64,000 nucleotides of DNA from Carnobacterium mobile DSM 4848. Lineage in GTDB: Bacteria; Bacillota; Bacilli; Lactobacillales; Carnobacteriaceae. The stretch lies in the NCBI RefSeq assembly GCF_000744825.1, contig NZ_JQMR01000001.1, positions 2,403,501-2,467,500 of the forward strand, in the 5' to 3' direction. The notes beneath the pieces are model-generated. The model was not told where the DNA came from. It searched no databases and saw nothing but the letters and a program-made list of their open reading frames with translations. The position numbers were made by a program, and so were the translations under genes. Shown piece after piece: positions 23,190 to 59,940 of this stretch; the stretch's first letter is position 1; each line of letters starts with the position of its first letter.

Positions 23190-23759
23190 ATGGCTCAACT
23201 TTTTTTCAAATACGGTGCAATGAACAGCGGAAAAACCATTGAGATTCTTAAAGTGGCATATAACTATGAAGAACAAGACAAACCTGTTGTTCTTATGACA
23301 AGCGGTTTGGATAATCGAGATGAAGTGGGCATTATTTCTAGCCGGATCGGTTTGCGGCGTGAAGGGATTTCGATCTTTGATGATACCAATATTTATGAAA
23401 CTATTCAAGAACTTGATTTCAAGCCTGCTTGTGTATTAATTGATGAAGCACAATTTTTAATGAAAACACATATTTTTCAATTAGCTCAAATCGTGGATGA
23501 TCTTGATATTCCTGTTATGGCCTTTGGTTTGAAAAATGATTTTAAAAATGAGTTGTTTGAAGGTTCTAAATACCTATTACTTTATGCAGATAAGATTGAA
23601 GAGATGAAAACAATCTGCTGGTATTGTCACAGAAAAGCCATTATGAACATGCGGATGATCAATGGTAAACCTGTCTATGCAGGCGAACAAATTCAAATCG
23701 GCGGAAATGAAAGTTACTTTCCCGTTTGCCGTAAACACTATATCCACCCACCCCTTTAA
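23190..23759 (+). CDS. tdk: Thymidine kinase
   Basis: The 189-residue type II thymidine kinase phosphorylates thymidine with ATP in pyrimidine salvage. Visible are the P-loop [10 protein letters not shown], the Walker B-like LIDEAQFL with the catalytic Glu, a zinc site starting at ICWYC and ending at CRKH, and the lasso-loop segment [16 protein letters not shown]. The ATG at 23190 follows AGAGGA. The short intergenic region before prfA is filled with hairpin repeats instead of the rpmE gene found there in some Bacilli. Confidence 0.95.
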
Positions 23760-23763
23760 AACA

Positions 23764-24115
23764 GGATGTGGAGCGCTCTCGTTCAGCTCAGACAGAAAAT
23801 TAGGAAACTTGAGAGAAATGTTTCATTTCCAGAAAGATTATCTATTTTGACGAGAAACTGTGGCAAGCAGCTCAACTATAAGGATGCGAAGTGCCACATG
23901 GGAGTTTCGATTCAAAATTAGGAAACTTGAGGGAAATGTTTCATTTCCAGAAAGATTATCTATTTTGACGAGAAACTGTGGCAAGCAGCTCAACTAAAAG
24001 GATGCGGAGTGACCCGGATAGAAACACAGAGATTTTAGGAACTTTCCAAGCAAGATCAACCTGAGCATTGCTGAAAGTTATCTAATTTGCCAAATGCCGC
24101 ATGAGAGTTCCTTAA
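23764..24115. repeat. Family-2 hairpin cluster, locus 1 (three modular units)
   Basis: Three units start with GGATGYGRAG at 23764, 23882 and 24000 (spacing 118). Unit 2 is type alpha: GTGCCACA pairs with TGTGGCA, AGTTTC with GAAACT, TCAAAAT with ATTTTGA, and GGAAATG-TTT-CATTTCC forms the tip. Unit 3 is type beta, with an AACTTTC/GAAAGTT stem and AGCAA/TTGCT. Unit 1 begins like the gamma unit of locus 2 and continues as alpha, so it is a hybrid. The cluster lies directly after tdk. Confidence 0.85.
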
Positions 24116-24161
24116 ATAAAAAGACAGCAGCAGTAAACTATGAAAAAAGGAGAATTTCGGT

Positions 24162-49169: not shown

Positions 49170-49655
49170 ATGAAAAAAACAAAGCAGCAAAAAACGAATG
49201 CCATTCGTCTGCTGGATAAAGCGGGCATACCTTATCAACTTCATGAGTATCCTTGGAGTGAAGACCACCTAGACGCAAGTGCAGTAGTTGAAGGAGTAAA
49301 AGTTCCTGGCGAGTGGATTTTTAAAACGATTGTAACGGTCGGGGACAAAACGGGGGCAATCGTAGCTTGTATTCCGGGAGCCAGTGAGATCAATTTAAAA
49401 GCTTTGGCGAAAGTCAGCGGAAATAAACGTGTTGAATTATTAAAATTAACGGAATTAGAAAAGACAACAGGGTATATCCGAGGTGGTTGTTCGCCGCTTG
49501 GTATGAAAAAACTCTTTCCCACGTACCTATCAAAACATGCAGAAAAAATGGATAAAATCGTTATTTCAGCAGGCAAACGCGGATTGCAAGTTGAACTTGA
49601 TCCATTAGACTTGCAACAGCTCACTTCAGCTGTTTTTGCTGAAATCGAAGCTTAA
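49170..49655 (+). CDS. YbaK/EbsC-type aminoacyl-tRNA deacylase
   Basis: The 161-residue protein of the YbaK/ProX family removes mischarged amino acids (usually Cys from tRNA-Pro) by editing in trans. Visible motifs are YPWSEDHLDASAVVEG, WIFKTIVT with the conserved Lys, CIPGASEINLKALAKVSGNKRVELL, and RGGCSPLGMKKLFPTY. ATG 49170 follows GAAGG. It is 40 nt after the methyltransferase gene and probably in its transcript. Confidence 0.9.
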   Translation: MKKTKQQKTNAIRLLDKAGIPYQLHEYPWSEDHLDASAVVEGVKVPGEWIFKTIVTVGDKTGAIVACIPGASEINLKALAKVSGNKRVELLKLTELEKTTGYIRGGCSPLGMKKLFPTYLSKHAEKMDKIVISAGKRGLQVELDPLDLQQLTSAVFAEIEA

Positions 49656-49665
49656 AAAATAGAAA

Positions 49666-49778
49666 AGCAGTACAAGCTGCTCTGGCTCGACAGGAAAACA
49701 GGAAGTCCAACCCGGAATGAGCATACTGCGCAAGGGGTAGGACTTCCTGTTTTTTCCGAGAGCCAAGCTTGTACTGCT
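49666..49778 (+). terminator. Terminator nested inside a long palindrome
   Basis: The inner stem (AACAGGAAGTCC with GGACTTCCTGTT, 12 bp) is followed by T6. It is enclosed by a second set of perfect arms, TGGCTC/GAGCCA and AGCAGTACAAGC/GCTTGTACTGCT. The whole 113-bp block could fold as one hairpin in which the T-run is partly internal. Confidence 0.8.
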
Positions 49779-49821
49779 AGACATCAGATGGAAGAAAAGT
49801 TAAATAACCTTTATAGGTTAA

Positions 49822-58700: not shown

Positions 58701-59305
58701 CAGGCCATTATGCTTATATGACAAAGGATTACTATAAAAAAGCAGCTGGTCAAGAACCGGTATATAATACACAATTGCTGAAATACCAAGAAGGAAAACA
58801 ATGGGAAGACAAAATCGGCAGAGAGTTGACAGCTATGCCGAGTGTCGCAGCAATCAGCTTTGTACGAGACGTAAGTGGAACAATCAACGATACAATGGGT
58901 AGTTTAGGCATTGTAACGTTGGTGCTGATCGTTTCAGCAGGGTTGCTGGCTTTTGTCGTACTGTACAACTTGACCAACATCAATGTATCAGAACGGATCA
59001 GAGAACTGTCTACCATTAAAGTCTTAGGCTTTTTTGATAAAGAAGTGACGTTATACATTTATCGAGAAAACATCATTTTAACTTTAATGGGAATCGTAGT
59101 CGGTTCGTTATTAGGAACAGTACTGCACGGTTTTGTTTTGAATACAGCTGAAATGGATATACTGATGTTCAGTCCGAATATCCGTCCATTAAGTTTCCTT
59201 TATTCAGGACTTCTAACCTTGCTGTTTTCTGGGATCGTCATGATCGCGATGCACATCAAACTAAAAAATGTCGACATGATCGAAGCCCTAAAATCAGTAG
59301 ATTAA
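55727..59305 (+). CDS. Giant FtsX-type ABC permease with long extracytoplasmic coiled coil
   Basis: The 1192-residue protein has helix 1 at residues 20-40, an extracytoplasmic domain, a predicted coiled coil from about 250 to 635 rich in Gln/Ala/Glu, then three helices in the first FtsX block (about 660-780, ending before MRPKAPKIG), a further domain and four helices in the second FtsX block to the C terminus. The coiled coil holds an internal duplication: about residues 340-410 resemble 503-572 (shared AGENE-AANQQ and LNQAK). Such permeases couple ATP use to work outside the membrane, for example on lipoproteins, peptides or wall enzymes. The substrate is unknown. ATG 55727 follows GGGGGAG. 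Confidence 0.87.
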   Translation: MKKKALWKDIVKELWQSKARFLSIFAIITLGVAFFAGIKATGPDMIDTTDQYYRDTNLMDLKVVSTYGLEQSDIDLLKTVEGVSVQAAYSKDVILKDSGLVTKVLSYPEKAENSVNQYVVVSGRLPEKSGEIALDATAKYDSEYKLDDSIVLTTDDPDDPIKDSLVEDTYKVVGFVNSPQYIEHSARGNSTVGTGSLDGFAVIPKADFDMEYYTEAYLTFSDTSSLEAYSNLYEGKVDKHQTDIEQLTKDLPKERLDTIKKEAKEEIDKGQKEIDEAKEKLADGQSQLDDAKKELDDGRADYQEGLGKLESEISKAQAELDANSQKLAEGKKELASKRAELEAGQTELNQAKQSFNEQKAAAEADLAAGENELAANQQQIDEGVQAIKAAKIEIEQGKQAIQQGQAQLDQQTQELKAGQQQVNDMKAALQAAQAELAQAVEAGTDEAALAELKQTIAQLQQAIPAAEKEIENGQAALNQGQAELDKQSNAVQAGEPELNQKQAELEAAQSKLNQAKETFAAQKAAAQEKLTAGENEIAANQQKINEGQQAIQSAETELAKGEAQLAEGQATLDQEQAKGKAELADAKEKLETGQADYEKAAAEFETQKKDAEKKISDGEADLADAKKELAELAKPEYFVFDRSVNPGYAEYSDNADRISAIAQVFPVFFFLIAALVCLTTMTRMVDEQRLQIGTLKALGYTNGDISIKFMLYASLASVIGTIVGLLIGYQVFPSVIFNAYGSLYNLPSIRITYYISYGLISFAISILCTVASAYAAVRVALKSNAATLMRPKAPKIGQRILLERLPFVWNRMGFIQKVTARNLFRYKQRMLMTVLGIAGCTALILTGYGVSDSIADIPSLQYGKVMKYDGLVAYNTDATKEEKKDYQDFIQLQPEIQSHLNVLQEPYTASKKGANKQDVTVFVPETTKQLDDYVFLNDRRSGETYSLSDNGAVITEKLAKLFDLKVGDTLSMKDDDNNEVDVKVSHIAENYAGHYAYMTKDYYKKAAGQEPVYNTQLLKYQEGKQWEDKIGRELTAMPSVAAISFVRDVSGTINDTMGSLGIVTLVLIVSAGLLAFVVLYNLTNINVSERIRELSTIKVLGFFDKEVTLYIYRENIILTLMGIVVGSLLGTVLHGFVLNTAEMDILMFSPNIRPLSFLYSGLLTLLFSGIVMIAMHIKLKNVDMIEALKSVD

Positions 59306-59309
59306 ACAA

Positions 59310-59760
59310 GGATGCGAAGTGCCGCAAGGGAGTTTCGATTCAAAATTAGGAATCTTGACGGAAATGTTTCATTTCCAGAAAGATTATCTATTTTGACGAG
59401 AAACTGCGGCACGCAGCTCAACTAAACAAGGATGCGAAGTGCCGCAAGGGAGTTGCGATTCAAAATTAGGAATCTTGACGGAAATGTTTCATTTCCAGAA
59501 AGATTATCTATTTTGACGAGAAACTGCGGCACGCAGCTCAACTAACAGGATGCGGAGTGACCCTGATAGGCACACAGCAATTTTAGGGATTTTCAAAGCA
59601 AGAGCATCCTGCGCATTGCTGAAAATCATCTAAATTGCCAAGTGCCTGGGTCACGCAGCTCAACTAACAAGGATGCGGAGAACGCTGAACAGGCATGACA
59701 GAAAATTACTTAGTCTCTGTTGAATGTATCATTCGTACAGAGATTTAAGAGAGAGAAATG
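59310..59760. repeat. Family-2 hairpin cluster, locus 2 (alpha, alpha, beta, gamma)
   Basis: Four units begin with GGATGCG at 59310, 59430, 59548 and 59671. The first two are nearly identical alpha units (GTGCCGCA with TGCGGCAC, AGTTTC with GAAACT, TCAAAAT with ATTTTGA, AATCTT with AAGATT, tip GGAAATG-TTT-CATTTCC). The third is beta (GTGACCC with GGGTCAC, GGCAC with GTGCC, GATTTTC with GAAAATC, AGCAA with TTGCT). The fourth is a shorter gamma unit (TCTCTGT with ACAGAGA) cut by the family-1 fragment. All share the ending GCAGCTCAACTAA when complete. Confidence 0.88.
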
Positions 59761-59940
59761 TAGTGACCTTCTGGGAAATACCACAAGAGGCCAAAAAACC
59801 TCGAGGATATTTCATCTTTTTTCCGTATCCTTTTCATGGCTACAAGCAACTCCCTATTCCCCAAAAAATTTCTGAGATGTGTTTCTAAATTAGTTTGAAT
59901 TAAAAGAAACTCCGTTTTATGACTTACCAACGTCCTAGGT
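59761..59940 (-). repeat. Family-1 element, truncated inverted copy E
   Basis: On the minus strand this starts with ACGTTGGTAAGT (outer arm, 59932-59926 region), then ATTCAAACTAATTTAGAAAC, GGGGAATAGGGAGTTGC and GTAGCCATG-AAAGGATAC. It diverges after position 59825 and lacks the usual right half. A short hairpin (GAAATA/TATTTC with GAGG/CCTC) takes its place. It borders the family-2 cluster. Confidence 0.75.

Follow-up and report, generated by a model that had tools for sequence, protein, structure and literature searches.

Tandem hairpin units in the window

The window (the whole stretch of DNA analysed, 64,000 nt) lies in a genome of 2.63 Mb whose prfA product is 89% identical to the PrfA of Carnobacterium jeotgali. 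It carries repeated hairpin units at three loci, all on the plus strand: two tandem arrays, A (23764–24116) and B (59310 to about 59800), and a single unit at 49663–49785. The E-values of the covariance model (CM) reach 1e-30 in the window.

Array A begins 4 nt downstream of the TAA stop codon (23757–23759) of a tdk-like ORF (23190–23759) and contains three units in tandem. The first (23764–23879; CM E 4.8e-17) is a chimera, with a gamma 5′ half and an alpha 3′ half, and is followed by the linker TATAA (23877–23881) and by an alpha unit (23882–23997; E 2.3e-28). The third is a beta unit (24000 to about 24116) that retains its stem, has lost its 3′ end and matches the model only weakly (E 0.0019). 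Array B has four units. The sequence TAAACAA (59303–59309), made up of a stop codon (TAA, 59303–59305) and a linker, precedes the first of them (alpha, 59310–59425; E 1e-30) and is exactly repeated after it (59423–59429). A second alpha unit (59430–59545; E 1.7e-29), a beta unit (59548–59667; E 8.9e-24) and an interrupted delta unit lacking its 3′ end (59671 to about 59800) complete the array. The interruption (59705–59775) is a hairpin of about 66 nt, CTTAGTCTCTGTT...GTGACCTTCT, which splits the unit at its U bulge, and the same insert is found at 2271294 in the window's own genome and in a relative (G001, C1:1505458).

The locus at 49663–49785 was absent from the earlier note on this DNA and was recovered by the covariance model (E 1.9e-8). 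The first model base lies 7 nt past the stop codon of ORF 49170–49655. This unit has a different class of flank (AGAAAAGC...GCTAGAC), which is typical of Enterococcus- and Bacillus-type genomes and is represented by this one copy in the window's genome.

The earlier note had described alpha and beta units at 23.9 kb and 59.3 kb as nested hairpins in which base changes between the loci keep the pairing. That observation is confirmed by the fold, the model matches and covariation relative to shuffles, and the units turn out to be a larger phenomenon than first described. Both reported changes are exact: the alpha arms are GCCGCA/TGCGGC at 59.3 kb and GCCACA/TGTGGC at 23.9 kb, while the beta stem is GATTTTC/GAAAATC in the 59548 unit and AACTTTC/GAAAGTT in the 24000 unit.

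A common fold supported by covariation

Each unit is one closed hairpin of about 105–122 nt including the flanks, with 39 covarying base pairs. The closing helix, P0, pairs GA.GC (of GGATGC) with GCTC (of GCAGCTC); in a relative (G002) P0 is GA.GU with ACTC, a paired change. Next come P1 (7 bp, type-specific), P2 (about 5 bp), P3 (e.g., CAAAAU/AUUUUG) and a U bulge, beyond which are AGR/UCU, an A or G bulge, P3c and P4. At least six core types (alpha, beta, gamma, delta, epsilon and zeta) arrange their helices in the same order and carry the bulged UAGR/AUCU motif. Since all types share this architecture, flank and core represent one element.

The interpretation first placed on the units is partly supported, but its claim that unrelated cores share the same flanks, with the flanks as the unit and the cores as its cargo, is not. 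The flanks (GGATGCGRAG and GCAGCTCAACTAA) are indeed present, but the cores are related to one another by P1–P4, the bulged motif and the flank-made P0, and a cargo role does not agree with flanks that pair as the closing helix of a single architecture. The modularity stands, as unit types alternate within an array that keeps a single linker, and there are chimeric units. The units are interchangeable, yet each is a whole element.

In a model-fitted alignment of 150 units, 94.0% of 4997 cells were paired, compared to 65.7% after shuffling, and all 39 pairs had changed on both sides; a cleaner alignment of 123 units, also model-fitted, gave about 94% against about 66%, with both sides altered in 37 of the 39 pairs. 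Covariation scores for the two sets were about 0.70, against about 0.21 for shuffles (0.694 and 0.204 for the 150 rows) and 0.06–0.13 for slid controls, so that the covariation sought in a larger alignment was found. Model-fitted alignments are biased towards the structure, and an alignment of 13 alpha and beta units made by MAFFT alone, which is free of that bias, still had 93% of cells paired against 82% in shuffles, and a covariation score of 0.350 against 0.160, with none of 500 shuffles scoring as high. Wobble is rare (about 2% of cells). With the conserved G.U set aside and the counts collapsed by locus, the non-Watson-Crick cells comprise more G.U than A.C (92 against 45; p = 4e-5), and this excess indicates that the sense strand is the strand that folds. 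Selection thus acts on the pairing, with a preference for the sense strand.

A second hairpin insert, of about 60 nt (CACCTAAAGGTAGCC...CAGCTACG), lies exactly at the A/G bulge of the dnaK unit in five or more of six loci (L299, L300, L301, L304, L305 and L307, near 1575–1640).

One end of the array faces the gene

The first 19 arrays include 16 that start between −1 and +4 nt relative to a stop codon; two others are entered in frame by the upstream gene, and the remaining one opens with an interrupted unit. Arrays of the window's own genus mostly begin 0–4 nt past the stop. For 133 arrays from many genera, the median gap from the 5′ end to a CDS boundary is 5 nt and that from the 3′ end is 168 nt; measured in the same way, the 3′ end almost never abuts a CDS boundary. 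Seventy-nine of the 133 follow a stop codon in the sense orientation, most of them (about 55) at −1 to +8 nt. About 23 are antisense and lie ahead of gene starts, with the start codon either 14–22 nt off, behind a Shine-Dalgarno site (13 arrays), or 3–6 nt off and without an obvious Shine-Dalgarno (10 arrays). With the 5′ end abutting in most arrays and the 3′ end free, it is the GGATGC end that faces the gene in both transcription orientations.

The phase of the gap is uneven: 33 of 55 gaps are 2 mod 3, and none of the 55 is 3 nt. A 2 mod 3 gap puts GAT GCG RAG in frame with the upstream gene, and the cases in which a gene is read into the unit (...QDAE) have the same phase. Such a loss of the stop codon was seen at L168, L183, L186 and L259, and at 2399434 and 2500684 in the window's own genome; in each the gene reads into the unit in the one phase and terminates at a stop codon that the unit supplies early on in that frame. 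At six dnaK–dnaJ loci, a sense unit after dnaK is accompanied by an antisense unit that ends 3–6 nt before the dnaJ ATG and leaves no visible Shine-Dalgarno for dnaJ.

Linkers, junction repeats and turnover

The linkers, which span the 3–10 nt from CAAY to the following RGATG, are specific to the array. Within an array they were identical in 19 of 45 comparisons, even where the next unit was of another type, and between arrays in 76 of 4671; in some arrays the linkers differ from one another. The stretch just upstream of the first unit also resembles the first linker (suffix match 121 against 73 expected, with none of 2000 permutations as high), the TAAACAA of array B being an upstream/linker repeat that includes the stop codon. 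Many junctions thus have site-specific direct repeats of about 4–9 nt, even between unlike units. These junction repeats suggest duplication of the target, although duplication of linker-plus-unit blocks could also yield them between units of one type.

In four congeners, orthologous sites were variously empty, decayed, or occupied by other types or numbers of units. The tdk–prfA site is filled only in the window's own genome. Among the sites common to several species are rpoB–rpoC, map, fliN and pcrA–ligA. Flanks of empty and filled sites (genomes G000 to G004, the first being the window's own) are too diverged to place the insertion to the base.

At two sites the unit itself could be followed between species. 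In a genus of Streptococcus-like bacteria (about 2 Mb genomes; the assignment is inferred from streptococcal gene content), the 110-nt unit after the dnaK stop codon is more conserved than the third codon positions of dnaK in all of 190 species pairs. Median identities are 0.973 for the unit and 0.833 for the third positions, and the next 100 nt (0.31) are unalignable. Other copies are only about 80% identical to the dnaK unit, so genome-wide homogenisation fails to explain its conservation. Between the first rpoB units of the window's genome and of G001, a small sample, one double and two single changes leave the pairing intact, and there is one more mismatch.

Distribution among Bacilli

Further copies, looked for as a check on the earlier note, were plentiful. 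The window's own genome has 33 model matches, 30 on the plus and 3 on the minus strand, nearly all within one third of the chromosome (C1 1.75–2.57 Mb), and there are many more in relatives. Model R1 matched 15 of 18 genomes of the window's family and 97 of 395 genomes of the order. Model R2 matched 50 of 399 genomes of the class, and among 398 genomes of the phylum its matches were confined to class Bacilli; all 22 genomes of an Enterococcus genus had matches, the richest at least 149. In the Streptococcus-like genus, copies are present in 132 of 147 genomes, three of which (G186, G295 and G489) show strong local expansion, with many tandem copies and TACA/TTCA-type linkers.

In several relatives, one strand is common to all among the matches listed. 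A strict one-strand rule was dropped, given the three minus-strand copies in the window's own genome and the use of both strands in other genera. A DNA similarity search of 72,556 plasmids and 50,697 phages gave no match, and carriage by either was likewise dropped. At the Rfam gathering score no family was detected in the window, and none for the units at nine related loci, where the only hit was a separate THF riboswitch (RF01831, 40 bits; L192, 1426–1514) beside an enterococcal array; a permissive Rfam search returned chance matches only.

Origin and possible function

Taken with the structure, polarity, junction repeats, turnover and local constraint described above, the units are likely to be copies of a non-autonomous, structured, interspersed mobile element, restricted to Bacilli, that inserts at the ends of coding sequences and is sometimes retained. 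Successive units would insert at the same boundary, each duplicating a short target that often includes the stop codon, and a target of this kind would give the CAAC|TAA-linker|GGATG junctions. Repeated insertion at one boundary may then build the tandem mixed arrays. The unit would be transcribed within the mRNA of the upstream gene, as a 3′-UTR or intercistronic part, with its hairpin predicted to begin within about 10–18 nt of the stop codon. By analogy with E. coli REPs near stop codons, such a hairpin might slow termination or ribosome recycling, or shield the mRNA from nucleases. Most sites would turn over and decay, as in a parasitic phase, and a few would be domesticated under purifying selection, for example after dnaK in the Streptococcus-like genus. 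The units probably move and, at some sites, also benefit the cell.

Several observations count against this explanation. The variable repeat length (4–9 nt) is unusual for a DDE transposase, the roughly ten arrays 3–6 nt before an antisense start lie outside what a 3′-UTR role explains, and the gap phases are uneven. A mobilising enzyme was not found; the Y1 (REP/IS200-type) transposase, PF01797, was ruled out as mobiliser by its absence from 16 of the 18 family genomes, including the window's own.

The host may instead have made the units as a non-mobile family of cis-regulatory RNAs, that is, control or mRNA-stability hairpins that were duplicated and selected at stop codons. This is conceivable but judged unlikely. 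Strict sense adjacency to stop codons, strong in-place conservation after dnaK and a G.U bias indicating the sense strand would all be expected, and translational control by REPs that lie within 15 nt of a stop codon is a precedent (PMC12306157). Such a family would, however, hardly vary in unit number and type at orthologous sites, many of them empty in close relatives, nor reach at least 149 matches in an Enterococcus genome. Decayed and chimeric copies, host genes without a functional theme, the 23 or so antisense arrays before starts, and the junction repeats also speak against it.

Landing exactly at stops and next to Shine-Dalgarno sites would be accounted for by integration at the RNA level or linked to the ribosome, through an RNA intermediate or with a target set by translation boundaries. 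The 5′ end is flush with CDS boundaries in both orientations and the 3′ end is not, the direct repeats vary in length, and there is a phase preference, with the read-in cases all in one phase. We know of no mechanism for such integration of these units, and we regard it as improbable: so far, no reverse transcriptase or integrase has been tied to the unit, and the antisense class is hard to square with insertion into mRNA.

The small size, the many chromosomal copies and the direct repeats would also suit a classic MITE of a DDE insertion sequence (IS), with the boundary preference arising only from selection against more harmful sites. The terminal inverted repeats are limited to the 4-bp P0, however, and the structure is maintained over the full length, beyond the need of IS ends. 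A parent IS was not seen in a non-exhaustive search, and plasmids and phages lacked matches. Were selection alone at work, the 5′ distances should scatter like those of the 3′ end. A MITE of this kind is judged very unlikely.

That the units are very short ORFs whose translation is coupled to that of the upstream gene (ATG in GGATGCG, TAA in CAACTAA) is scarcely credible and was rejected. Of 113 distinct units, 36 keep the ATG frame open throughout (11.6 in shuffles), a count inflated by alpha copies, but in most units that frame is closed or frameshifted. The Enterococcus flank class lacks an ATG at this position, as do many streptococcal units, and changes track base pairing, not codons.

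The mobile-element reading has a more far-reaching form, which we offer tentatively and consider doubtful: a class-wide mobile element of structured RNA, steered by translation boundaries (the stop codon in sense, the Shine-Dalgarno region in antisense), always with the same end towards the gene, by a mechanism undescribed for bacterial repeats, and domesticated as a post-transcriptional element at chaperone genes.

If the main reading given above holds, essential operons (rpoB–rpoC, pcrA–ligA, tdk–prfA and dnaK–dnaJ) of Carnobacterium-, Streptococcus-, Enterococcus- and Bacillus-type genomes contain members of a large, hitherto undescribed family of structured repeats, exactly where hairpins can alter termination, reinitiation and the decay of mRNA. 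Given the strict end polarity, one may ask by what means a mobile element locates the ends of genes. The covariance model allows immediate annotation of the units, and the conserved dnaK copy a direct functional test.

Comparison with known repeats

The units work like REP/BIME or BOX elements, yet lack their defining features where tested. EFAR of Enterococcus faecalis are reportedly interspersed hairpin repeats of many sequence types. The related comparison is with Efa-1 (163 nt, 65 copies; PMC2267715): both it and EFAR resemble the units as enterococcal interspersed hairpin repeats, but Efa-1 folds as two adjacent stem-loops (about 163–170 bp) and the unit is a single hairpin.

The REP/PU/BIME sequences of enterobacteria are also interspersed palindromes that often lie no more than 15 nt from a sense stop and form modular clusters, and they have been proposed to act in mRNA stability and in the stalling of ribosomes; about 11% of the RepRanger E. 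coli REPs lie within 15 nt of a stop (PMC12306157). The units share this adjacency and hold to it far more strictly, a likeness of function only. REPs are 20–40 bp and tied to Y1 TnpA-REP enzymes (PMC3733652); the units, in contrast, are 105–122 nt with 39 pairs rather than 20–40 nt palindromes, and PF01797 is absent from the window's own genome.

BOX elements (S. pneumoniae and S. suis) are modular, variably assembled and intergenic, form hairpins once transcribed, and have reported direct repeats (PMC3049150). They differ in having no such distance peak at CDS ends and in being almost absent from streptococci other than pneumococcus, mitis and suis, whereas the units are class-wide and occur in 132 of 147 genomes of the Streptococcus-like genus. 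SPRITE (S. pneumoniae) is likewise a hairpin near CDS 3′ ends (PMC3049150), but its 18-bp duplex and following U-rich tract are terminator-like, unlike the 39 pairs and conserved bulges of the units. Intrinsic terminators, SPRITE included, were rejected as an identity for the units, which end in GCUCAAYUAA without a U run and sit inside rpoB–rpoC, pcrA–ligA and tdk–prfA. A likeness to integron attC sites was dropped, as GCUCAAC fits RYYYAAC on one side only, without a second box.

The bcr1 repeat of the Bacillus cereus group is, like the units, a structured mobile repeat in Bacilli (147–167 nt; PMC2267715), and by description it is set apart by its greater length and its restriction to one species group. 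We class the units, compared by description with EFAR, BOX and bcr1, as a new family within a known kind of repeat, one whose insertion geometry is unusual.
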